From assembly GCA_024692565.1 (NCBI GenBank), contig JAILMN010000009.1, forward strand, positions 1-64,000: a stretch of 64,000 bases of DNA, in the 5' to 3' direction. Both the position numbers and the translations under genes were made by a program. Source of the stretch: Paludibacteraceae bacterium. GTDB taxonomy: Bacteria > Bacteroidota > Bacteroidia > Bacteroidales > Paludibacteraceae. The notes under the pieces are model-generated. The model ran no database searches. It was not told where the DNA came from and saw nothing but the letters and a program-made list of their open reading frames with translations. Shown here one piece after another: positions 1 to 18,317 of the stretch. Each line of letters starts with the position of its first letter. Positions within the stretch are counted from its first letter, which is position 1.

Positions 1-894
1 ATGCAGCTTGGCGATGAAGTAATCGTTCCGGCTAATACGTACATTGCTTCTATTCTTGCTATCACCGAGAATGGTCTGAAACCGGTATTAATAGAGCCTA
101 ATCCGGAAACATTGGAGATTGATGACACCAAGATAGAAGCAGCCATCACTCCACGCACGAAATCTATTCTTATTGTGCATCTCTATGGTCGTTGCGCAAT
201 GACGGAGAAGATAGCTGAGATTTGTAAGAAGCATAACTTACGGCTGGTAGAAGATAATGCTCAAGCGCACGGCTGTCTTTGGAATGGCAAACGTACCGGT
301 TCTATTGGTGAAGCCGCTGGTCATTCCTTCTATCCGGGTAAGAACCTCGGCGCATTAGGTGACGCTGGAGCTGTAACTACCGACAATAAGGAGTTGGCGG
401 ATGCTATGCGTGCACTTGCCAACTATGGCTCACAACGCAAATATGTCTTTAAATATACAGGCCGTAATAGCCGTTTAGACGAGATCCAAGCCGCTATACT
501 TGACATCAAGTTGTGCCACTTGGACGATGACATTGCTTTGCGTCAGCAAGTTGCGGATTATTTCTACGACCACATTTCCAATCCACTCATTTCTCTGCCG
601 ACACGCTTGCTACACCAACAAAACGTGTATCACTTGTTCCCGATATTGGTATCAGACGGCAAGCGTGACGCTCTGCACGATTATTTGGAGCAACGCGGCA
701 TAGGCACCGTTATTCATTATCCTATTGCTCCGCACAAACAAGAGTGCTATGCGCGTGAGACATGGAACATTCCACAATTATCCCTTCCGATAACCGAACG
801 TCTCGCTGATGAAGAACTCTCCTTACCGATGAGTCCGTGCATAACTTTAGAGCAATTAGAGTATGTGGTAAAAACTATTAACGAATTTGCATAA
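1..894 (+). CDS. DegT/DnrJ/EryC1/StrS-family PLP sugar aminotransferase (5' end outside window)
   Basis: [23 protein letters not shown] and [21 protein letters not shown] motifs typical of DegT aminotransferases; ORF open at left edge. Confidence 0.93.
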
Positions 895-905
895 ATATTT
901 CAGCT

Positions 906-1115
906 ATGTTCAAACATACTAAACGACTTTTGTCCGACATCCGTTTCTGGTGTCAAGAGATCAAACTCCGTCACCGCGAGAACACAGAGTGGGAGCGCAT
1001 CGAAGATGAAGAATGGCGTCATCCGATGGCTGGCTTTGGTTACTACACCACCATCAAACGCAACCGCGCCGAACGTAAACGCATTCACGCAGAACAACGC
1101 GAATTGATTAGCTAA
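906..1115 (+). CDS. small hypothetical protein
   Basis: 69-aa ORF 11 bp after the aminotransferase, same strand; no recognised domain. Confidence 0.4.
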   Translation: MFKHTKRLLSDIRFWCQEIKLRHRENTEWERIEDEEWRHPMAGFGYYTTIKRNRAERKRIHAEQRELIS

Positions 1116-1121
1116 TCGCCT

Positions 1122-1370
1122 ATGCTTATAGCCGTCAGATTTCGATATTACACCGCCACAACTCCCTCGTTTGATATTGTGGAGTTGAACGACAAACAAT
1201 GGCGTGAGTTCTTCTTGTTGGAGCGTAGTTTTATGCGCATGGAGTGGATGATCAATTTCCTCAACTGTCAACACCTCCGTCATAAGATCAAAGAACTCTG
1301 GTGGATTCCCATTGACGACCAATCTGCTCTCCATATTGACGAATCCGCTGTCATTCACAAACGCGACTAA
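1122..1370 (+). CDS. small hypothetical protein
   Basis: 82-aa ORF directly downstream, same strand; no recognised domain. Confidence 0.4.
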   Translation: MLIAVRFRYYTATTPSFDIVELNDKQWREFFLLERSFMRMEWMINFLNCQHLRHKIKELWWIPIDDQSALHIDESAVIHKRD

Positions 1371-1411
1371 AGATTCTTCCTTTGTGCCGACTATCAGTCG
1401 GTCGTTTCATT

Positions 1412-1441
1412 CGGTCACATCTCTGTGACCGTTTTTTCTTT
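1412..1441 (+). terminator. intrinsic terminator
   Basis: cggtcaca-tctc-tgtgaccg perfect 8-bp stem, 4-nt loop, followed by ttttttcttt. Confidence 0.75.
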
Positions 1442-1716
1442 GCATTTCGTCGATTGTCAATCGGCATAGTTTCGTTCATTGTGTTGGATGTCATCCAGCA
1501 AAGGGATATTAAGCAAATTTTACGCTCAGTGTATATTTTGCTTTTAAACATTTTTGGGATAGTTTTGGTGCTGCATTTTTTTTTGCTTTATCGTAAAAAT
1601 GACAGAAATCGGTACGAAATTCATAGTGAAATGACGGAATAAGTGTATAGATTTAGATGCAAGAAATGGACTAAGTGTATATTTTGATGCAAAAATAATA
1701 GAAAATGTGTAAAATA

Positions 1717-1748
1717 TTTGCACAATTTATTTATTTTTTGTACCTTTG
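1717..1748 (+). promoter_or_regulatory. Bacteroidota-type promoter for the rSAM/RiPP locus
   Basis: TTTG (1717-1720), 20-nt spacer, TACCTTTG (1741-1748). Confidence 0.65.
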
Positions 1749-1810
1749 CACTTGATTTTAGAATATAATATATTCTTCTTAAAATGCAATAGACTAAGTT
1801 CAATCTGCTG

Positions 1811-1879
1811 ATGGAGAATTTTTACATGAAGGATCTAAATAGATTTAAGTTTAACATTTACACCCAGGGTCTAAATTAA
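1811..1879 (+). CDS. possible 22-aa leader/uORF peptide MENFYMKDLNRFKFNIYTQGLN
   Basis: ATG...TAA ending 2 nt before the rSAM ATG at 1882, in the 5' leader of the locus. Confidence 0.3.
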   Translation: MENFYMKDLNRFKFNIYTQGLN

Positions 1880-1881
1880 TT

Positions 1882-3003
1882 ATGGGGGTATTTAAGAATC
1901 ACATATTATTTACATGCCCTATGTCTACGATAATGCCCATCGTACGACCTATTGGGAATTCATGTAACTTAAGGTGTGCATATTGTTACTATAACTCGAT
2001 AGATCAGAAATTATGTTCATCGAAAGTTATGTCGGACAAGATACTGGAGACTTTTATTTCGCAATTCATCGAATTATCAGGAAAAGAAGTTACTTTCGTA
2101 TGGCATGGTGGAGAACCTTTATTGGCGGGTATTGATTTTTTTAAACGAGTCATTGAAATTGAAAATTTATACAAAAGAAAAGGTCAGGTCGTTAAGAACA
2201 ACATTCAAACGAATGGTACTTTAATAAATAAGATATGGGCATCTTTCTTCAAAGAGCAAGACTTTCATATAGGAATGAGTTTAGATGGTATTCGTTGTTG
2301 CCATGATATGTTTCGTAAAAATCAATATGGGAATGGAAGTTTTACTCAAGTTATTACTGCTATTAACTTGCTGCGTGAATATAATATAGAACCAGGTATA
2401 TTGCAAACAGTGACACGTTTTTCTTTGAAGTATCTAAGAGAAAACTTTGATTTCTTTGTTGATGACTTAAAATTAACAAAATGGGGAGTAAACGTATACA
2501 ATGATGCAGGAAATATAAACCCCTTGCTGAAAAATCAATCATTATCGAATGATGAATATTTCTTTTTGTACAAGTCTCTCTTTGAATTTTGGTTGCAAAG
2601 AAATAACCCTGCTATAGAGATTAGAGAAATTAACACATTTATTAGTGGCGTTCTGGGGAAATATTCTGGCATTTGTCAAAATTCAGGTATATGCTCTTCT
2701 TTTATTGCAGTAGACCCAGATGGAACCATTACTCCAACATGCGAGAGTTTCTTTATTAATGATCGATATAAGATAAATAATAATCTTTTAAATAATAAGT
2801 TATTAACCATTCTTAATGGCGACATGAGATTAAATTACTCTAAGGTAATTAATCATATACCCACAGAATGTGCAGAATGCGAATGGTTCTCTGCATGCTT
2901 TAACGGATGCACTATGCAAAGAGACAAAAAAAATCATTATATATATTGCAAAGGAAGGAAAAAATTATTCTCATACTTGTGGGGATATTTGAATAATGTT
3001 TAA
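1882..3003 (+). CDS. radical SAM/SPASM peptide maturase (GrrM/anSME-like)
   Basis: CNLRCAYC (CxxxCxxC cluster), TFVWHGGEPLLAG, QTNGTL, SPASM Cys set CQNSGIC...TPTCES...CAECEWFSACFNGC...YC. Confidence 0.93.
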   Translation: MGVFKNHILFTCPMSTIMPIVRPIGNSCNLRCAYCYYNSIDQKLCSSKVMSDKILETFISQFIELSGKEVTFVWHGGEPLLAGIDFFKRVIEIENLYKRKGQVVKNNIQTNGTLINKIWASFFKEQDFHIGMSLDGIRCCHDMFRKNQYGNGSFTQVITAINLLREYNIEPGILQTVTRFSLKYLRENFDFFVDDLKLTKWGVNVYNDAGNINPLLKNQSLSNDEYFFLYKSLFEFWLQRNNPAIEIREINTFISGVLGKYSGICQNSGICSSFIAVDPDGTITPTCESFFINDRYKINNNLLNNKLLTILNGDMRLNYSKVINHIPTECAECEWFSACFNGCTMQRDKKNHYIYCKGRKKLFSYLWGYLNNV

Positions 3004-3021
3004 CCATATTAATTCCGCGTT

Positions 3022-3198
3022 ATGAATGCTTGTCTAAATTCACAAAATGCTCTAGCTTATTTGATTGAAAGAGTACAAAAGAGACCATCAATCATAGCCT
3101 CCCCAAGGGCTTTTATACCCCATGATGATGTGATCTCAAAAAACTATCAGGGAAATCATCAGAATTGGAACAATGGTGGCTTTACAAATCATCATTAG
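3022..3198 (+). CDS. candidate RiPP precursor peptide, 58 aa (not in ORF track)
   Basis: Translated by hand: MNACLNSQNALAYLIERVQKRPSIIASPRAFIPHDDVISKNYQGNHQNWNNGGFTNHH*; lies between maturase and methyltransferase; C-terminal HQN, WNN, FTN motifs. Confidence 0.85.
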   Translation: MNACLNSQNALAYLIERVQKRPSIIASPRAFIPHDDVISKNYQGNHQNWNNGGFTNHH

Positions 3199-3201
3199 AG
3201 G

Positions 3202-3235
3202 AAAGGCATGAAGGCATGTGCTCCTTCATGCCTTT
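3202..3235 (+). promoter_or_regulatory. 13-bp inverted repeat hairpin just after the precursor stop codon
   Basis: aaaggcatgaagg-catgtgct-ccttcatgccttt perfect 13-bp stem with 8-nt loop. Confidence 0.8.
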
Positions 3236-3817
3236 AATTGTATGAGGAAATTTTACAAGACACAATACGAGTTCTACTCTTCTTATTGTCTGGGCAAAAC
3301 AATATATGAGAGAAATGGTTTTGATGAATACCCGGAAACAGCGTATTCAATATTTATCAGTGCAATTGAGACATTGCCAGAAAAATCTTTAACAATAATC
3401 GACATCGGTTGTGGCAATGCTTCGTTATTAAAATATATTATTAGTTATACAAAAAAGAAAATCATACCATTTGGCGTAGATTTTTTAAGTGCCTCAATCA
3501 AAGAAGCACAGTCATATATATTACCCCTATTCTCCAATAATTTTTTGTGTGTTAATGCTATCGATTATATTTGGAAGCGTTCTTTTGATATAGTATTATT
3601 CGATCCGAGTATTTTAGCTAAAGACGATATTAACACTTTTTTTCAACGTATTAAACTATCAAAATCTCATTACTGCATAGTGTACGTATATTCAGATGCT
3701 ATCAGAATGCTTAAGATAGCGAATATAGTGGAAATTTTGCCTTCATTTGTTTCTGATAAGAACATATTATATGTAACACAAACAGAACAAATTTCATTAG
3801 TATTGTTTCATTTATAA
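3218..3817 (+). CDS. class I SAM-dependent methyltransferase-like protein (start may be 3242)
   Basis: TIIDIGCGNASLLKYI motif I; FGVDFLSASIKEAQ; FDIVLFDPS; same strand downstream of precursor. Confidence 0.75.
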   Translation: MLLHAFNCMRKFYKTQYEFYSSYCLGKTIYERNGFDEYPETAYSIFISAIETLPEKSLTIIDIGCGNASLLKYIISYTKKKIIPFGVDFLSASIKEAQSYILPLFSNNFLCVNAIDYIWKRSFDIVLFDPSILAKDDINTFFQRIKLSKSHYCIVYVYSDAIRMLKIANIVEILPSFVSDKNILYVTQTEQISLVLFHL

Positions 3818-3926
3818 TCCATATCTTCATAAAAGAACACAAACGGATATAAAATGAGAAAAAATATTGAAGAATGTTATTGAATGTATAAAAAATAGAA
3901 GAAAAAATACTTTTTTTACAAAAATA

Positions 3927-3959
3927 TTTGCATATGTCAAAAAAAAGCAGTACCTTTGC
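3927..3959 (+). promoter_or_regulatory. 33-bp conserved promoter module copy
   Basis: TTTGCATATGTCAAAAAAAAGCAGTACCTTTGC. Confidence 0.85.
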
Positions 3960-4000
3960 GCTCGTAAAAATTGTGTCTACACACAAAAAATGCAAATAAC

Positions 4001-5254
4001 ATGAATATACATCGTCCCATTTACCTGCAAAAACTTATCGATCGTCGTCATAACGGCATGATAAAAATCATAACCGGTATGCGCCGAAGCGGGAAGTCAT
4101 ATTTGCTTTTTAACCTGTTTGCCGATTATTTGAAAGGCGAGGGTGTAGATAATCAACATATCATCGCTATCGACCTGGAAAATATCTACAATGAGCACCT
4201 TCGAGAACCGTTGGAGGTGTTACAACATATAGACAGTCAGGTCAAAGATTCGAAAGAGTACTATGTGCTCATTGATGAGGTACAGTTACTCAATCGTTTT
4301 GAGGAAGTGCTGAATACGCTGCAGAAGCGTCCAAATATCGATGTATATGTTACCGGCAGCAATGCCCGATTCTTATCCAAGGATGTGATAACTACTTTCC
4401 GTGGTCGTGGCGATGAAGTGCGGGTACATCCTTTGAGTTTCTGTGAATATATATCTGCGCAGGCAGACATTTCCTTTATGGAACGTCATTTAAACGATTA
4501 CATGCGTCTGGGTGGACTGCCACAGACCATTGCCATGCAGCGTGAAGAACAGAAACGCGACTATTTGCAGCACTTGTTCGAAAATACATATCTGCTGGAT
4601 ATCAAGGAGCGGTATGATATACGTAACGATGATGACCTGGTAGAGTTGATAGATATTGTGGCAAGCAGTATAGGCAGCCTAACCAACCCTACCAAAATAA
4701 CCAACACATTCAAGTCCGTCAAGCAAAGCAACATTGCTCGTGACACGGTCAAGAACTATATCGACTACATGCAAGATGCGTTTCTCATAGAAAAGGCTAT
4801 TCGCTATGACATCAAGGGGCGCAAGTATATTGACTCGCCTGCAAAATATTACTTTGACGACTTGGGCTTGCGTAACGCGCGTTTGAATTTCCGTCAAACG
4901 GAGCCTACCCATCTGATGGAAAACCTCATATACAATGAACTGCGCTTACGTGGCTATTCGGTTGACGTGGGACAAGTCAATGTCTTTACGAAAAACGAAG
5001 AGGGTAAGACTGAACGAAGGCAACTGGAAGTGGATTTTGTTTGTAACCAAGGTGACCGCCGACTGTACATCCAATCGGCTCTCAATATAGATAGCGAAGA
5101 CAAGCAAAATCAAGAATTGGCGTCGCTGAAAAAGATAGACGACAACTTTCAAAAAGTGGTTATTGTTGGCGGTATGCAACCTACCTATCGTAACAATGAC
5201 GGGATATTGATACTTAATATCTTTGACTTCCTATTGAATAAAGTAACTGTTTAA
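4001..5254 (+). CDS. AAA ATPase, DUF4143 (AAA_14) family
   Basis: ITGMRRSGKSYLLF Walker A, YYVLIDEVQLL Walker B, VYVTGSNARFLSKDV, C-terminal LEVDFVCNQGDRRLYIQSA. Confidence 0.9.
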   Translation: MNIHRPIYLQKLIDRRHNGMIKIITGMRRSGKSYLLFNLFADYLKGEGVDNQHIIAIDLENIYNEHLREPLEVLQHIDSQVKDSKEYYVLIDEVQLLNRFEEVLNTLQKRPNIDVYVTGSNARFLSKDVITTFRGRGDEVRVHPLSFCEYISAQADISFMERHLNDYMRLGGLPQTIAMQREEQKRDYLQHLFENTYLLDIKERYDIRNDDDLVELIDIVASSIGSLTNPTKITNTFKSVKQSNIARDTVKNYIDYMQDAFLIEKAIRYDIKGRKYIDSPAKYYFDDLGLRNARLNFRQTEPTHLMENLIYNELRLRGYSVDVGQVNVFTKNEEGKTERRQLEVDFVCNQGDRRLYIQSALNIDSEDKQNQELASLKKIDDNFQKVVIVGGMQPTYRNNDGILILNIFDFLLNKVTV

Positions 5255-5292
5255 CGTTTTTACCCCAAAACCGAATAGAAACCGCAACACCT

Positions 5293-5415
5293 ATGACGAA
5301 TAATATTTTTCAAGGTCAATCGGTCAAGTCTTCGGCTATCAGTATGGTGCTCAATCGTTGGAAAGCCAACCACAAGATCGAGCAAATCGGCGAAGCACAA
5401 TTCCGCAAACTCTAA
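5293..5415 (+). CDS. small ORF, 40 aa
   Basis: MTNNIFQGQSVKSSAISMVLNRWKANHKIEQIGEAQFRKL* followed by a terminator hairpin; unknown family, could be a gene fragment. Confidence 0.35.
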   Translation: MTNNIFQGQSVKSSAISMVLNRWKANHKIEQIGEAQFRKL

Positions 5416-5420
5416 TCGTC

Positions 5421-5450
5421 AAGCACCCGGGGCAAACACCTCGGGTGCTT
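5421..5450 (+). terminator. terminator-like hairpin
   Basis: aagcacccg ... cgggtgctt 9-bp stem. Confidence 0.6.
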
Positions 5451-5738
5451 CATTCACATTTTCACAGATTCACACAAAAATGTGAGTAAAATGCAGAAAA
5501 ATTTCGAGGGCACCGACACGGCTACGCCGTCCCACCTCGAAATATAAGAGGAGATGGAGCAAGATCAAAAAACGGAGTAAACTCCTTATTCCTTGTCCAA
5601 CACAGTCCAATCTATACGAGTATAATTGGCCTAAATTGTCCAAGAAGCATTGTGAAAATGCATTTTTTTGATTTTGCTAAAGAAAAATTTGCATATGTGC
5701 GATTTTTGTTGTAATTTTGCGGCGCAAAATTTTTTGGT

Positions 5739-7091
5739 ATGGTACATGATTTATATGTTTTGATGATCACGGCGGGCATAGTGAGTCTGCTTTTCAAGCT
5801 GCTCAAGCAGCCGGTGGTATTGGGCTACATCGTAGCCGGAGTGTTGGTAGGACCGAACCTGTTCGGCGATAACTGGGTGGACCCCGAGAACGTGGAAGCA
5901 TGGGGTAACATCGGCGTGCTATTCGTGCTGTTCTGCATCGGTTTGGAGTTTCGGTTAAAGAACCTGTTCCAGAGCGGGAAGGTAGCGCTGGTAGGCGCGG
6001 CAACGATCATCGTCGGCATGCTCGTGTTGGGTTACGGCGTGGGTCGATTTGCGCTGATGGACAACATGAACTCGCTCTTCCTGGCGGCGATGCTGTGCAT
6101 GAGCAGTACGACCATCGTGATGAAAGCGATAGACGAGGCGGGGCTGAGCAAAGCGCGGTTCGTGAAAGGCGCGACAGGTATCCTGATTCTGGAGGACATC
6201 GTAGCCGTTGTGCTGCTGGTATTGCTGTCCAGCATCGCGGTGAAGAACAGTTTCGAGGGCGTGGAGTTGCTCAAGAAAGTAGGCGTGTTAGCGATCACGT
6301 TAGTGGTATGGTTCGTGGTCGGTATATTGATCATCCCGACTTTCCTTCGTAAGGTTCGTCCGTACCTGAACGACGAGACGCTGATCATCTTGGCCTTAGG
6401 TCTGTGTTTGGGCATGGTGCTGACCGCTGAAGAGGCGGGATTCAGTAGTGCCCTCGGTGCGTTCGTGATGGGAATGGTGCTGGCCGAGACACTCGAGTCG
6501 CACCGTATCGAGCATCTGATGGCGCCGCTGAAGAATGTGTTCGCCGCGATCTTCTTTGTGTCCGTGGGCATGATGATCAATCCTTCTTCGCTCGTGACCT
6601 ATTGGCCGTCGATACTGATTGTATCCATCGTCATCATCGTAGGTATGATCACGTTCGGCACGCTGGGTTGCTGGTGGGGCGGCGAGACGATGAAAGATGC
6701 AATGAGCACGGGATTCTCGTTCGTGCAGATAGGCGAGTTCTCATTCATCATCGCGGCGCTGGGAAGCAAACTGGGTGTGACCGATCCGGCGATCTATCCG
6801 ATCATCGTGGCATCGAGTGTGCTGACCACTTTCCTCACGCCGTATATCATGAAAGCAACCGTGCCGTGCTATGACTTCCTGTATAGCCATGCTTCGCCGC
6901 GTCTGAAGGCGAAAATAGACAAACGTGAAGCGGATGTGGCGAAGGCTGAGAAAGCGGCAGCGAATGCTTCGACAGAAGATAAATTTCAGTTGCACCGCGA
7001 GAAGGCTAACCGCGTGCTGCGGCATACGGTGGTCGCCAAACGGGTGGTGAATCTGTTTTTTGAAAACATGAGTGAGAATGATAATGAGTAA
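5739..7091 (+). CDS. CPA2-family cation:proton antiporter (KefB/NhaS-like)
   Basis: GYIVAGVLVGPNLFG, FCIGLEF, many TM helices, SSALGAFVMGMVLAET, FFVSVGMMINP. Confidence 0.92.
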   Translation: MVHDLYVLMITAGIVSLLFKLLKQPVVLGYIVAGVLVGPNLFGDNWVDPENVEAWGNIGVLFVLFCIGLEFRLKNLFQSGKVALVGAATIIVGMLVLGYGVGRFALMDNMNSLFLAAMLCMSSTTIVMKAIDEAGLSKARFVKGATGILILEDIVAVVLLVLLSSIAVKNSFEGVELLKKVGVLAITLVVWFVVGILIIPTFLRKVRPYLNDETLIILALGLCLGMVLTAEEAGFSSALGAFVMGMVLAETLESHRIEHLMAPLKNVFAAIFFVSVGMMINPSSLVTYWPSILIVSIVIIVGMITFGTLGCWWGGETMKDAMSTGFSFVQIGEFSFIIAALGSKLGVTDPAIYPIIVASSVLTTFLTPYIMKATVPCYDFLYSHASPRLKAKIDKREADVAKAEKAAANASTEDKFQLHREKANRVLRHTVVAKRVVNLFFENMSENDNE

Positions 7092-12605: not shown

Positions 12606-13694
12606 ATGAAGACAAACCATCTCTATTTACTTCTTTTTGCCGCCGTACTTACGGCCTGCGGAGGCAGTGCTCCGCAAGTGGCGCAGAGTTCGTATCAGAC
12701 GCTGACGATCAGCAAGAGTGACATCACCGTGCCGCTGAAATACAGCGCTACCCTGAAAGGTACCTCAGACGTGACCATCAAGCCGCAGGTAAGCGGTCAG
12801 CTGATGGAAGTATGTATCACCGAAGGACAGCAGGTGAAGAAAGGTACAGTGCTTTTCCGTATCGACAGCCGTGATGCGCAGCTCGAGTTGGAGTCGGCAG
12901 AGGCGAATCTGTTGGCAGCTCAGGCGCAGGAGAGTAGCGCCAAGTTGGAGTTCGAGAGTTCGAAGAACCTGTTCGCCAAAGGCATCGTGAGCAAATATAT
13001 GCTGGACAATGCGGAAAACGAGTACAAGCAGGCGCAGGCTTCGGTAGCGCAATATAGGGCGACCGCAGACCGCGCACGTGTGAACCTCGGTTACTGCACG
13101 ATCACTTCTCCTGTGGACGGCGTGATCGGTTCGATCCCTGTTTTCGCAGGTGACCAGGTGAATACCACGACGTATCTGACGATGGTGAGCGGCAACGCGA
13201 AGATGTATGCCGAGTTCTCCGTGAACGAGTCGGTTCTGGAAGAACGCGCGCAGGCAGGAACCAAGGACAACGGAAGCGCTTTGGCAGACTTCCCGGACGT
13301 GACGTGGTTGTTCAAGAGCGGCACGGAGTACGATCGCAAGGGTCGCATCACGAGTATCACCGGTACGGTGGACAAGACCACGGGTGCGCTGACCTGCAAG
13401 GCTACGTTCCCCAATCCGGACGGTGTGCTTTACTCGGGTGTTCAAGGTACGGTAGTAATCCCTATCGAGGTGAAAGATGTGATGGTTGTTCCGCAGAATG
13501 CTATCGTTCGTTTGCAAAACAAATCATTAGCGTATAAGGTAGGTCCGGACAGTTGTGCATACAGTACGATCGTGGAGACGGTAGGCATCAGTTCGGATCG
13601 CGACTTGGTGGTGACCAAGGGTCTGGAGGTAGGCGACGTGATTGTCACCGAAGGGGCGAACAACTTGTATGAAGGACAGAGAGTTCTCTTTTAA
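12606..13694 (+). CDS. RND efflux periplasmic adaptor (HlyD/AcrA family) lipoprotein
   Basis: Lipobox LTACGG; KPQVSGQLMEVCITEGQQVKKGTVLFRIDSRD; coiled coil; CTITSPVDGVIG. Confidence 0.94.
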   Translation: MKTNHLYLLLFAAVLTACGGSAPQVAQSSYQTLTISKSDITVPLKYSATLKGTSDVTIKPQVSGQLMEVCITEGQQVKKGTVLFRIDSRDAQLELESAEANLLAAQAQESSAKLEFESSKNLFAKGIVSKYMLDNAENEYKQAQASVAQYRATADRARVNLGYCTITSPVDGVIGSIPVFAGDQVNTTTYLTMVSGNAKMYAEFSVNESVLEERAQAGTKDNGSALADFPDVTWLFKSGTEYDRKGRITSITGTVDKTTGALTCKATFPNPDGVLYSGVQGTVVIPIEVKDVMVVPQNAIVRLQNKSLAYKVGPDSCAYSTIVETVGISSDRDLVVTKGLEVGDVIVTEGANNLYEGQRVLF

Positions 13695-13740
13695 TTGTAG
13701 ATTTTAGATTGCAGATTGCAGATTTTAGATTGACGATTTT
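13695..13740. repeat. 7-bp-period tandem repeat (6 units)
   Basis: TTGTAGA TTTTAGA TTGCAGA TTGCAGA TTTTAGA TTGACGA TTTT then ATG. Confidence 0.85.
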
Positions 13741-16700
13741 ATGAAGGAGAATATTTTCATTAAGCGAAGTGTGATGGCCATATCGATAGCGTTGGTAATC
13801 ATGCTCGTCGGATATATCAGCCTCAATACTTTGCCTGTGGAGCAATATCCGGATATCGCGCCTCCGACGGTAACGGTAACGGCTTCCTATTCGGGTGCAG
13901 ATGCCAATACCTGTATGACCTCTGTTATCCGACCGCTCGAAGAGCAGATCAACGGAGTGCAGGACATGACCTACATGACCGCTACCGCCTCTTCGACGGG
14001 TGACATCACTATCACCGTCTATTTCAAGCAAGGCACAGACCCCGATATGGCGACCGTCAACGTGCAGAACCGTGTGTCGCAAGCGGAACCTTTGCTGCCG
14101 AGTGACGTGCTGCAAACAGGTGTAACCGTCACCAAGCGTCAGAATAATATCCTGCAGATCACGGGTCTGAAATCAACCGACGGCAAATACGATGCGGACT
14201 TTATCTCCAATTATATTGACATCAACATCAAGCCGATGGTGTTGCGCGTGACGGGTGTAGGCGAGGTGAACAACTTAGGAAACACCTATGCGCTGCGTGT
14301 GTGGTTGAAACCCGACGTGATGGCGCAGTACGGTTTGACGCCGGATGATGTATCGAGTGCTATCTCCGCGCAGAGTTTCGTTACCTCTACCGGTACGCTC
14401 GGTCAGCAGTCTGAGAATGCGTATCAGTACCCCATGGAGTACAAAGGTACACTCAAGTCGATTGAAGAGTTTGAGAATATCGTGCTCCGTGCGCAGGATA
14501 ATAGCAACGTGCTGTATCTGCGTGATGTGGCGACGGTAGAGATAGGCGCCAGATCCTATACCATGTCTTCTCTGATGGACGGTAAGCCCGGATGCTTCTT
14601 TATGGTTTTTCAGTCGCCGGGAGCGAATGCTACGCTGGTCAACCAGAGTTTGGATGAGTTGTACGAGCAGATTAAACCGACGCTGCCTGCCGGGCTGGAG
14701 TTCGTGACGCTGGAGACCAGTAATGACTTCCTCTTTGCCGCCATTCATAATGTGGTGGAGACCTTGATTATCGCGATTTTGCTCGTTATCATCGTGGTGT
14801 ATTTCTTCTTGCAGAACTGGAAAGCGACCTTGATCCCGTCCATCTCGATCATCGTGTCGCTGCTCGGTACTTTCGCCATTGTGCAAGTGGCAGGCTTCTC
14901 CCTTAATATCATCACCCTCTTCGGATTAGTGCTCGCCATCGGTACGGTGGTCGATGATGCGATCGTTGTTGTCGAAGCCGTGATGGCCAAGCTCGAGACC
15001 GGTCAGATGAAAGGTTCGCCCAAGGACCAGGCAACGCAGGCTACCCGCGAGGCGCTGAGCGAAGTGTCGGTAGCCGTTATCTCCTGTACGCTCGTCTTCA
15101 TGGCGGTATTTATTCCTGTGACCTTCATGAGCGGAACGAGTGGCACCTTCTTTACCCAGTTCGGCGTGACGCTGGCAGGCGCCGTAGGACTGAGTTGTGT
15201 CTGCGCGTTGGTGCTCTGTCCTGCCCTCTGCGCCATCCTCATGCGTCCGACCGATGAGAAAGCGCTGGCTGGTAAGAAATGGAAGGGTATTGACTATTAT
15301 ACGAAAGTTGCTTACGAAGCGAGTTACAACGCCATCCTCGGCAAGTACCAGGGAGCGGTTCAGAAATACCTGAAGCGTCCGGCTTGGTCGTTTGCGCTGT
15401 TAGGCGGAGCCATCGTGCTGTTCGTGCTCTTCATGAAGATCCTGCCTTCGGGTCTCGTTCCGCAGGAAGACCAAGGTGTCATCCTCTGCGAAGTGCGTAT
15501 GCCGGAAGGTTCGACGCTGCATGAGAATGCCGAGATCATGAAGAAAGTGGAAGAGAAAGTGAAGGCCATTCCGGAGATGGAGAGCTACGCCATATGTAGC
15601 GGTTACGGCTTTGTCTCCTCCAGCGGCTCGAGTTATGCTTCGCTCATCATCCGTCTCAAAAACTGGGACGACCGTACGGGCAATGAGCACTATATCGACA
15701 ATGTGATCATGCGTTTCTACTTCGATTGTCTGTCGATTAAGAATGCGCAGGTACTGCCCTTCCAAACGCCGCAGATTCCGGGATACGGTACGTCGAACAG
15801 CATCGACCTGCAGGTTCAGGATAGGAGCGACGGAGATTTCTCTGATTTTGGAAACAAGACCAATGCACTCATGGTGAAACTGATGGAGCGTCCGGAGATA
15901 GCCAGCGCGATGTCCACTTTCTCGGAGCGTTTCCCGAAATTCAAAGTGCATGTCGATCCCGTGCAATGCGAACGCGCCGGTACGACTGCCAAAGCGGTGC
16001 TGAACACACTCGGCGCGTACTGCAGCGGTTCGTACGTAGGTAACTTCAACCAATTCAGCAAGGTTTATCAATTATGGGTAAGCGCTTCGCCGGAATATCG
16101 TCTGGATCCGTCGTCGCTGAATAATATGTATATCAAAGTGAAGGACGGTAAGATGGCGCCGCTGTCGCAGTTCGTGACGCTCGAAGAGATTGTCGGTACG
16201 TCTTCACAAAACCACTTCAACCTCTTCCAATCCATCTCCTGCTCCGTGACGCCCGCGAGCGGCTACTCGGAGGCGCAGGCACAGAAGGCCATCGATGAGG
16301 TTTTCAAAGAGAATATGCCGGCGTACTGTTCGTATGAGTACGGCTCGATGTCGCGTGAGGTGGCGTCCAGCGCGAAGGACAACACGACGCTTATCATCTA
16401 TCTGATCTGTATCATCTTGATCTACCTCATCCTCGGTTCGTTGTATAATAGTTGGCTCACGCCGTTCGCGGTGCTCTTGTCTGTACCGTTCGGCCTGATG
16501 GGTTCCTTCCTCTTCTCGTGGATCGGCAATAAGATGGGTCTGCCGGGAATGGAGAACAACGTCTATCTGCAGACCGGTGTCATCATGCTCATCGGTTTGC
16601 TCGCCAAGACCGCTATCCTCATCACCGAGTTCGCCAGCGAGCGTCGCAAACAAGGTCTAACGATCGTAGAGGCTGCGCTCGAGGCATGTAAAGACCGTCT

Positions 16701-16935
16701 GCGTCCGATCCTGATGACCGTCATCACGATGATCGCCGGTATGATCCCGTTGATCGTTGCCGGTGGCGCAGGAGCGAACGGAAACCGTGCTCTGGCGCTT
16801 GGCGTCGTAGGCGGTATGAGTATCGGTACGATCGCATTGCTGTTCATCACTCCGGCCTTCTTCATCATCTTCCAAACCCTGGAGGAGAAAATGAACGGAA
16901 CGCCGGTAGCTAAAGGGAAGGAGGACGCGAAATGA
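13741..16935 (+). CDS. RND efflux pump inner-membrane transporter (HAE1/AcrB family)
   Basis: IKRSVMAISIALVIMLVGYISL; EQYPDIAPPTVTVTASYSGA; GTVVDDAIVVVEAV; GLLAKTAILITEFA. Confidence 0.97.
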   Translation: MKENIFIKRSVMAISIALVIMLVGYISLNTLPVEQYPDIAPPTVTVTASYSGADANTCMTSVIRPLEEQINGVQDMTYMTATASSTGDITITVYFKQGTDPDMATVNVQNRVSQAEPLLPSDVLQTGVTVTKRQNNILQITGLKSTDGKYDADFISNYIDINIKPMVLRVTGVGEVNNLGNTYALRVWLKPDVMAQYGLTPDDVSSAISAQSFVTSTGTLGQQSENAYQYPMEYKGTLKSIEEFENIVLRAQDNSNVLYLRDVATVEIGARSYTMSSLMDGKPGCFFMVFQSPGANATLVNQSLDELYEQIKPTLPAGLEFVTLETSNDFLFAAIHNVVETLIIAILLVIIVVYFFLQNWKATLIPSISIIVSLLGTFAIVQVAGFSLNIITLFGLVLAIGTVVDDAIVVVEAVMAKLETGQMKGSPKDQATQATREALSEVSVAVISCTLVFMAVFIPVTFMSGTSGTFFTQFGVTLAGAVGLSCVCALVLCPALCAILMRPTDEKALAGKKWKGIDYYTKVAYEASYNAILGKYQGAVQKYLKRPAWSFALLGGAIVLFVLFMKILPSGLVPQEDQGVILCEVRMPEGSTLHENAEIMKKVEEKVKAIPEMESYAICSGYGFVSSSGSSYASLIIRLKNWDDRTGNEHYIDNVIMRFYFDCLSIKNAQVLPFQTPQIPGYGTSNSIDLQVQDRSDGDFSDFGNKTNALMVKLMERPEIASAMSTFSERFPKFKVHVDPVQCERAGTTAKAVLNTLGAYCSGSYVGNFNQFSKVYQLWVSASPEYRLDPSSLNNMYIKVKDGKMAPLSQFVTLEEIVGTSSQNHFNLFQSISCSVTPASGYSEAQAQKAIDEVFKENMPAYCSYEYGSMSREVASSAKDNTTLIIYLICIILIYLILGSLYNSWLTPFAVLLSVPFGLMGSFLFSWIGNKMGLPGMENNVYLQTGVIMLIGLLAKTAILITEFASERRKQGLTIVEAALEACKDRLRPILMTVITMIAGMIPLIVAGGAGANGNRALALGVVGGMSIGTIALLFITPAFFIIFQTLEEKMNGTPVAKGKEDAK

Positions 16936-18317
16936 GAAAGTATATAGCCATCATTCTGGCAGGAGTGGTACTTAGTTCCTGCGGCGTGTATAAGAAGTAT
17001 CAATCGCAGAAGGACGTGCCGGATGACGTGTTTGGTAGCGGGGACTCGATCGCGCAGATAGCGCTGAATGACTCTTCGATAGCGTCCATCTCCTGGCGTG
17101 AGTTCTTCACCGATCCGTTGTTGCAGACGCTGATTGACTCTGCGCTGGTGCATAATACGGATTTGCAGTCTGCGCGTATAGCCGTAGATCAGGCGCAGGC
17201 GAGCCTCAAAGCCGCTAAGTTGGCGTACCTGCCTTCGCTGTCCCTGAATCCGAGGGCCAGCATCTACACCACGATGAACACCGGCGGCTCGCTCAGCGGC
17301 GCGTCGTACACCTATGACATCCCGTTGCAACTGGATTGGAACATTGGCATATCGGGTTCAGTGACGGTGAATAAACGCAAAGCGCAGGCAGTCATGGAGC
17401 AGGCGAAAGCATCACGTGAGGCGATGCAGGCCAATATCATCTCAACTGTAGCGCAGGAGTATTTCACGCTGCTGCTGCTCGACCGCGAGTTACAGATTCT
17501 GATTGAAACCGACAGCCTCTGGAACGAGTCGTTGGAGACGGAGCGTGCGCTCTGGGAGAACGGAAAAGCGTACTCGACGGCGGTCAACCAGATGGAGTCA
17601 TCCTGCATGAGCGTGAAGGTACAGATCATCGAAACCCAACGCAGCATTCGTAACATTGAGAATACGCTGTGTAAACTGTTAGCCATCACTCCTCGTCCAA
17701 TCGCACGCGGCACATGGGGTGCATACGAGCTGCCCCTCCGTTTCGGTACGGGTGTACCGGCTTCGCTATTGGAGAACCGACCGGACATACGCGTGGCGGA
17801 CCAACAGTTGGCGGAGGCGTTCTATAACACTGCGCTGGCGCGTTCGCAGTTCTTCCCTTCCTTCTCGCTGCAAGGAATCTTAGGCTGGACCAACAGCGGC
17901 GGTATTATTGCCGATCCGGGTGCGCTGCTGCTCAAAGCCTTGGCTTCCCTCACTCAGCCCATCTTCGCGCAAGGTAAACTGCGCGCTCAACTCAAAATAG
18001 CCAAACTCAACCAAGAGGACAAACTCAATAATTATGTGCAGACGGTGCTCAATGCCGGCAATCAGGTGAACGAGTGTCTTGCGGATTGTCAGGCGGCGCA
18101 AGACAAAGATGTGCTGTACAAGCGTCAGGTTGAGGTGTTGAAGGATGCGTATGACGGTACGCACGAACTGATGGAGAGCGGGAAGGCGTCTTATATCGAA
18201 GTGCTGACGGCTCAGGAGTCGCTGTTGTCCGCGCAGCTGAGTGAAGCTGAGAATATGTATGATGGCGCCAACGCGCTGATAGGATTGTATATCGCGTTAG
18301 GTGGCGCTACAAAATAA
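16932..18317 (+). CDS. TolC/NodT-family outer-membrane efflux lipoprotein
   Basis: LSSCGVYKKY lipobox; LENRPDIRVADQQLAEAFYNTALARSQFFPSFSLQG. Confidence 0.95.
   Translation: MRKYIAIILAGVVLSSCGVYKKYQSQKDVPDDVFGSGDSIAQIALNDSSIASISWREFFTDPLLQTLIDSALVHNTDLQSARIAVDQAQASLKAAKLAYLPSLSLNPRASIYTTMNTGGSLSGASYTYDIPLQLDWNIGISGSVTVNKRKAQAVMEQAKASREAMQANIISTVAQEYFTLLLLDRELQILIETDSLWNESLETERALWENGKAYSTAVNQMESSCMSVKVQIIETQRSIRNIENTLCKLLAITPRPIARGTWGAYELPLRFGTGVPASLLENRPDIRVADQQLAEAFYNTALARSQFFPSFSLQGILGWTNSGGIIADPGALLLKALASLTQPIFAQGKLRAQLKIAKLNQEDKLNNYVQTVLNAGNQVNECLADCQAAQDKDVLYKRQVEVLKDAYDGTHELMESGKASYIEVLTAQESLLSAQLSEAENMYDGANALIGLYIALGGATK

Follow-up and report, generated by a model that had tools for sequence, protein, structure and literature searches.

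Triceptides are defined by a bond between an aryl carbon and a Cbeta that joins residues i and i+2. In the described systems, such as XncB, OscB, MscB, YxdB, HaaB and YhhB, a SPASM maturase adjoins a short precursor with C-terminal aromatic-x-Asn/Asp motifs. OscB links Trp to the Cbeta of Asn or Asp, and three-residue cyclophanes initiated by His are known from HaaB, YhhB and ScaB (PMC11002830). Dynobactin combines a Trp-Cbeta(Asn i+3) link with a link from a Tyr-Cbeta to His N-tau (PMC11002830), and two Aro-x-x-Asn motifs characterise a cluster that is still uncharacterised (PMC9062424). In a paper on RiPP mining in Bacteroidales (PMC10352776), cyclophanes and triceptides are not mentioned.

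Here we analyse a stretch of 64,000 nucleotides from a Paludibacteraceae bacterium (contig JAILMN010000009.1), called the window in the following, which carries a low-GC cassette of three genes. The middle place is taken by a precursor ORF of 58 codons, located between a radical SAM/SPASM maturase and a methyltransferase. On the best reading of the sequences, the cassette represents a new and rare triceptide-like subfamily whose product would carry as many as three i-to-i+2 rings (His-Asn, Trp-Asn/Asp and Phe-Asn) and would also be methylated. The following features were located:

1717-1748, + strand: Bacteroidota-type promoter-like site (TTTG, 20 nt, TAccTTTG; pattern at 1741) at the cassette head, with a putative function
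1882-3003, + strand: radical SAM/SPASM peptide maturase, 373 aa, from profiles and alignment
3022-3198, + strand: precursor peptide, 58 aa, from ORF reading, the RUG12969 homologue and substitution counts
3022-3138, + strand: leader, residues 1-39, with a predicted boundary
3139-3195, + strand: core, residues 40-58, KNYQGNHQNWNNGGFTNHH
3145-3156, + strand: Y42-Q-G-N45, invariant, candidate dynobactin-like ring, Aro-x-x-Asn (i to i+3)
3157-3165, + strand: H46-Q-N48, proposed His-Asn three-residue ring
3166-3174, + strand: W49-N-N51, proposed Trp-Asn/Asp ring
3181-3189, + strand: F54-T-N56, proposed Phe-Asn ring
3202-3235, + strand: 13-bp hairpin between precursor and methyltransferase (inverted repeat I1), kept in RUG12969
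3242-3817, + strand: class I SAM-dependent methyltransferase, 191 aa, with a DIGCGN motif and a conserved YERNGFDEYP near the N-terminus
3927-3958, + strand: second Bacteroidota-type promoter-like site (pattern at 3951), before an AAA/DUF4143 gene

The precursor gene and its homologue

The ORF starts with ATG, 18 nt behind the stop of the maturase, and its sequence is identical to the one given in the original prediction. With 58 aa it lies under a 60-aa limit. Its [WFYH]-x-N motifs are H46QN48, W49NN51 and F54TN56, and there are no others. With the composition of the peptide kept, at least three such motifs were obtained in 13.5% of whole-peptide shuffles (P = 0.13) and in 25% of tail shuffles, a consequence of the many Asn, His and aromatic residues in the tail; the motif count by itself was therefore dropped as proof of a precursor. 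Of all ATG ORFs in the window with a length of 30 aa or more (343 in total), this peptide alone has more than one motif within its last 20 residues. A profile search of the peptide with the NCBIfam precursor families gave no match. Taken singly, without a homologue, the peptide sequence is suggestive only.

Where the motif count is weak, the question is settled by a homologue. An alignment-based scan of a genome collection of 85,462 species revealed one sole strong relative of the maturase (70% identical), in the uncultured Bacteroidales bacterium RUG12969, a rumen MAG (locus L071). Maturase, precursor and methyltransferase have the same order there and the flanking genes differ; the RUG12969 precursor sits directly 3' of its maturase, in the same place as in the window. 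This peptide, MNAYPNSNNVVANLISKVQEKPLSITSKRAFEPHLDVISKDYQGNHQNWNDGGFTNHH, aligns with the precursor over 58 of 58 residues without an indel at 69% identity. The identity amounts to 59% in the leader and to 17 of the 19 residues in the core. H46-x-N48 and F54-x-N56 are unchanged and the only motif change turns W49-N-N51 into W-N-D, while Y42-Q-G-N45 is fully conserved, including the residues outside the three motifs, and the three His of the core (46, 57 and 58) are invariant. Of the two outcomes that had been named as refuting the original prediction, a loss of motif positions and an interruption of the ORF, neither was found in RUG12969. The leader-core division and the three aromatic-x-Asn motifs of the prediction are borne out in one close homologue, with Asn51 replaced by Asp.

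Between the two cassettes synonymous sites are near saturation (pS 0.69-0.81). The dN is lowest in the core (0.04, with a dS beyond measure) and reaches 0.18 in the maturase, 0.29 in the leader and 0.33 in the methyltransferase. The core differs by 2 nonsynonymous changes in 48.3 sites versus 7 synonymous changes in 8.7 sites (Fisher P = 5e-6), the same contrast for the whole peptide gives P = 2e-9, and nonsynonymous change is weighted to the leader rather than the core (P = 0.002). Purifying selection acts on the precursor peptide, as judged from one pairwise comparison between the two close members in all. One of the two core replacements is the Asn51 to Asp exchange. Since OscB accepts Asn or Asp (PMC11002830), the step from W-N-N to W-N-D is the conservative change expected by the model and is, by analogy, of the type tolerated by three-residue cyclophanes. 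The 58-codon ORF is almost certainly a genuine RiPP precursor, and we have very little doubt that it pairs with the adjacent maturase.

Classification of the maturase

The maturase possesses the full set of radical SAM and SPASM cysteines, with C28, C32 and C35 in the CxxxCxxC motif and eight SPASM cysteines (C265, C271, C287, C330, C333, C339, C343 and C356). No cut-off of a curated family was reached among the NCBIfam profiles, GrrM included. The best profile was that of the anaerobic sulfatase maturases (TIGR03942, 259.8 bits, cut-off 349.45), followed by DynA (216 bits, cut-off 450). DarE and DarW (133 and 140 bits, both with a cut-off of 650) stayed below as well, and the same holds for GrrM/OscB (TIGR04261, 135.9 of 310 bits), XyeB (94.7 of 450), FxsB (100.6 of 370), YhhB (136.7 of 445) and AmcB (126.5 of 425), whose cut-offs mark named families and are not defining for cyclophane chemistry. 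The likeness to GrrA-type precursors that had been proposed is limited to the W-x-N and F-x-N motifs with GG between them; the score of the maturase, the lack of a Gly-rich repeat array and the lack of a precursor profile match place the locus outside the GrrM/GrrA family.

The top profile and the best solved relatives (PDB 4K37; same fold family and cysteine pattern, about 30% identity) could indicate an anaerobic sulfatase maturase next to an incidental small ORF. However, in a tree of 143 rows, calculated by a quick method and with some long branches, the window maturase lies outside a clade of 121 rows (support 99) and groups with its counterparts in L071 and L072 (support 99), then with L073 (82). 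From its 'C-D' motif (120 of 121 rows) and profile similarity we read this clade as sulfatase maturases. Sulfatase maturases have a catalytic Asp behind their third SPASM cysteine. Where 120 of the 121 rows show this Asp, the window maturase has Glu288, which aligns to the C-D of a solved sulfatase maturase. Further, no Cys/Ser-type sulfatase (Cys/Ser-x-Pro/Ala-x-Arg) was found in the source genome (77% complete), in which two PF00884 matches are without the active-site motif; the only string of sulfatase-motif shape, SGAFR in L159, is placed deep in the protein and away from the sulfatase active-site position. Together with the strong purifying selection on the adjoining ORF and a score below the family cut-off, this makes a sulfatase maturase highly improbable, and clade position, Glu288 and the lack of a formylglycine-type sulfatase in the 77% complete genome largely refute it.

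The surroundings of the related enzymes point to peptide substrates. A neighbouring small peptide with at least three [WFYH]-x-[ND] motifs occurs beside 13 of the 21 maturases outside the clade versus 2 of the 121 inside (P = 2e-11, an optimistic value, as it treats related rows as independent and includes the window locus). The closest outgroup maturase, from L072, is 37% identical and belongs to a genome of 0.6 Mb; its precursor overlaps the end of the maturase gene and contains ...SVAWGNNWADWNNSPQHNDWEDW... Peptides directly 3' of their maturases are found in L051 (...SWGNQWRDHIPDSI) and L053 (...AWKNQWRDHIPD). These two (L051:5113-5319 and L053:5339-5539), which adjoin related maturases, have W-x-N-Q-W-R-D-H-I-P-D in common at or near the C-terminus. 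Within the genus of the window, the Y-x-D loci L016, L017, L020, L023 and L024 likewise combine small aromatic-x-Asp precursors with a related maturase; unlike the window locus, they have a maturase that is 26-29% identical to the window maturase, a precursor 5' of it and a Tyr/Asp core, and no such methyltransferase was seen in them.

Other peptide loci were observed alongside. Just 5' of the RUG12969 cassette a second precursor (L071:4486-4626, ...HHDYVDNWPDYSHSDYSDSWRDSH) and a radical SAM maturase (4855-5970) form an aromatic-x-Asp locus that is probably co-transcribed with the cassette. On the reverse complement of the same contig (L156/L157), a third aromatic-x-Asp locus at 15847-17081 comprises ...FRDWDDNWSDSWSSDSWGDSYG and then a 357-aa radical SAM protein, and at 13631-15127 a very divergent 437-aa radical SAM protein is followed by a 53-aa Cys-containing peptide. 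A conserved family of small Tyr-x-Asp-rich peptides (e.g. ...YDYSDYHSDYADYD) was detected in L058, L059, L060, L061 and L066 from the window's genus and in L067 from another family; here the peptide is usually followed by an unassigned ORF of about 150-200 aa, and then comes a radical SAM/SPASM maturase nearest to the DynA profile. This family resembles the YxdB-type triceptides.

Proposed ring pattern of the core

The precursor probably gives rise to a cyclophane-type, triceptide-like RiPP by i to i+2 chemistry. A radical SAM/SPASM maturase is located next to a short precursor, and conserved aromatic-x-Asn/Asp core motifs are present in one close homologue and in motif-bearing peptides beside related maturases; with the known triceptides the locus also shares the Asn/Asp interchange and, in His-initiated rings, a precedent for its first motif. 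In contrast to them, its maturase reaches no curated family cut-off, its precursor is located 3' of the maturase, a methyltransferase is part of the operon, and the core carries a His-x-Asn motif within a contiguous H-x-N-W-x-N. Membership in the triceptides is provisional, since a sequence does not reveal the defining bond and the enzyme falls into no curated maturase family.

Glycine has no beta-carbon, and for this reason Y42-Q-G44, originally counted as an extra motif, cannot form a normal three-residue ring. Y42-Q-G-N45, however, equals the three motifs in conservation, which leaves room for another ring pattern. The main rival is a dynobactin-like product in which the maturase forms an Aro-x-x-Asn ring (i to i+3) between Tyr42 and Asn45 and at least one His- or Trp-based link further on, instead of three i to i+2 rings. 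The second-best profile of the maturase and the bonds of dynobactin itself fit this pattern, as does the cluster with two Aro-x-x-Asn motifs (PMC11002830, PMC9062424). Yet the maturase stays far under the DynA and DarE cut-offs and the rest of the core does not match; the relatives L072, L051 and L053 and the neighbours within RUG12969 have a dense aromatic-x-Asn/Asp spacing, and Asp51 in place of Asn51 suits an i+2 partner. We consider the dynobactin-like pattern unlikely.

SPASM enzymes are chemically diverse, and the core histidines 46, 57 and 58 are invariant. A genuine RiPP locus might thus use other chemistry (ether or C-N bonds, epimerisation, hydroxylation), or the reaction might be confined to one motif or two, with the His residues binding a metal, the more so as three rings in this subfamily are read from sequence. 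The motif spacing and the Asn/Asp exchange fit three-residue cyclophanes specifically, though, and the peptides beside related maturases have the same spacing; the chance of such other chemistry appears small.

The odds that a ring forms at His46-Asn48 are about even. A His-initiated ring had been expected to be unusual. This is true of the motif, as no precedent for a His-x-Asn ring was found, but His-initiated three-residue cyclophanes are known (PMC11002830), so that His-x-Asn would be a new motif and not a new chemistry.

Hairpin, methyltransferase and transcription

Both promoter-like sites resemble the Bacteroidota promoter consensus. The downstream one probably starts the next transcription unit and would mark the end of the cassette. 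From the sites before the maturase and before the next gene it follows that maturase, precursor and methyltransferase are probably a single transcription unit. The hairpin between precursor and methyltransferase has the arms GGCATGAAGG/CCTTCATGCC in the window and GACACGGAGG/CCTCCGTGTC in RUG12969, which differ by three double, compensatory changes. Its folding energies (-20.2 kcal/mol in the window, -23.4 kcal/mol in RUG12969) are below those of all 1000 mononucleotide shuffles in both cases. We propose a leaky terminator or an mRNA-stabilising element; no Rfam match was obtained in window positions 1370-4010. Neither this hairpin nor the methyltransferase gene had been noted in the original prediction.

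For the methyltransferase an AlphaFold model of only fair quality (pLDDT 62) was obtained from two sequences. The model backs the predicted fold alone, and Foldseek returned generic Rossmann methyltransferases. A likeness to the plantazolicin methyltransferase BamL (phmmer E = 0.008) was discarded, as it covered the SAM-binding part only and was not reproduced by a two-sequence profile, with which BpumL, a relative of BamL, matched at E = 0.13. The peptide is a possible target, RNA a less likely one.

A DegT-type aminotransferase gene and two small ORFs are located 5' of the cassette and an AAA/DUF4143 ATPase gene 3' of it. The cassette contains neither an exporter nor a protease gene, and a search of the 77% complete source genome for a C39 peptidase gave no match.

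Distribution and probable horizontal transfer

The cassette is rare and is known from the window and RUG12969 among the genomes searched. No close relatives were found in 178 genomes of the genus, no close members in 397 other genomes of the phylum (E <= 1e-62) or in 297 genomes around RUG12969 (1e-56), and none in viral contigs, plasmids and phages that were searched directly. The methyltransferase is present in 1 of 295 genomes of the order, namely the source genome itself. The GC content of the cassette is 31% versus 50% for the window, and in RUG12969 it is 32% versus 42% for the contig. Low GC in both hosts, differing neighbours and patchy presence suggest that the cassette moved horizontally among gut and rumen Bacteroidales. 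In an empty-site test, genome G015 matched window positions 1-1097 at about 96%, followed by unrelated genes, and shared with positions 3926-3968 only a generic 43-nt promoter, for which reason exact insertion ends are not definable. No repeats of the kind that border mobile elements were seen on either side of the cassette. At the edge of this low-GC unit, an 82-aa ORF (1122-1370) without a Pfam match lies on DNA that recurs elsewhere at 87-96% identity in several genomes of the same genus. This piece may be mobile or prone to recombination.

Proposed maturation and significance

In the proposed pathway, the maturase would recognise the leader of the precursor, take the beta-hydrogen from the Asn/Asp two residues past each aromatic residue and link the resulting beta-carbon to the side chain of that aromatic residue. 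This would close as many as three small rings in the last 13 residues, His46-Asn48, Trp49-Asn51 and Phe54-Asn56. By means of the hairpin, more precursor than methyltransferase would be made. The methyltransferase would add a methyl group before or after leader removal, and proteins encoded outside the cassette would remove the leader and export the product, whatever its final activity may be.

Tentatively, and with slightly less than an even chance in our estimation, these features could define a new triceptide subclass, in which one maturase forms a His-x-Asn ring, a Trp-x-Asn/Asp ring immediately after it and a further ring at Phe-x-Asn, and the product is completed by a dedicated methyltransferase. 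Neither a ring of the His-x-Asn type nor methylation would then have a precedent among triceptides, as far as we found in the literature; papers on H-x-N triceptides or on methyltransferases of triceptides did not turn up in a search with little coverage of subscription journals.

The study also shows that a precursor shorter than the usual gene-calling lengths can be validated by one distant homologue. Small peptide products of gut and rumen Bacteroidales are little known, and the cassette would be a compact and testable three-gene addition to the cyclophane peptides. It would serve to test whether a single enzyme accepts His, Trp and Phe for adjoining rings, and what contribution a methyltransferase makes to a cyclophane product.
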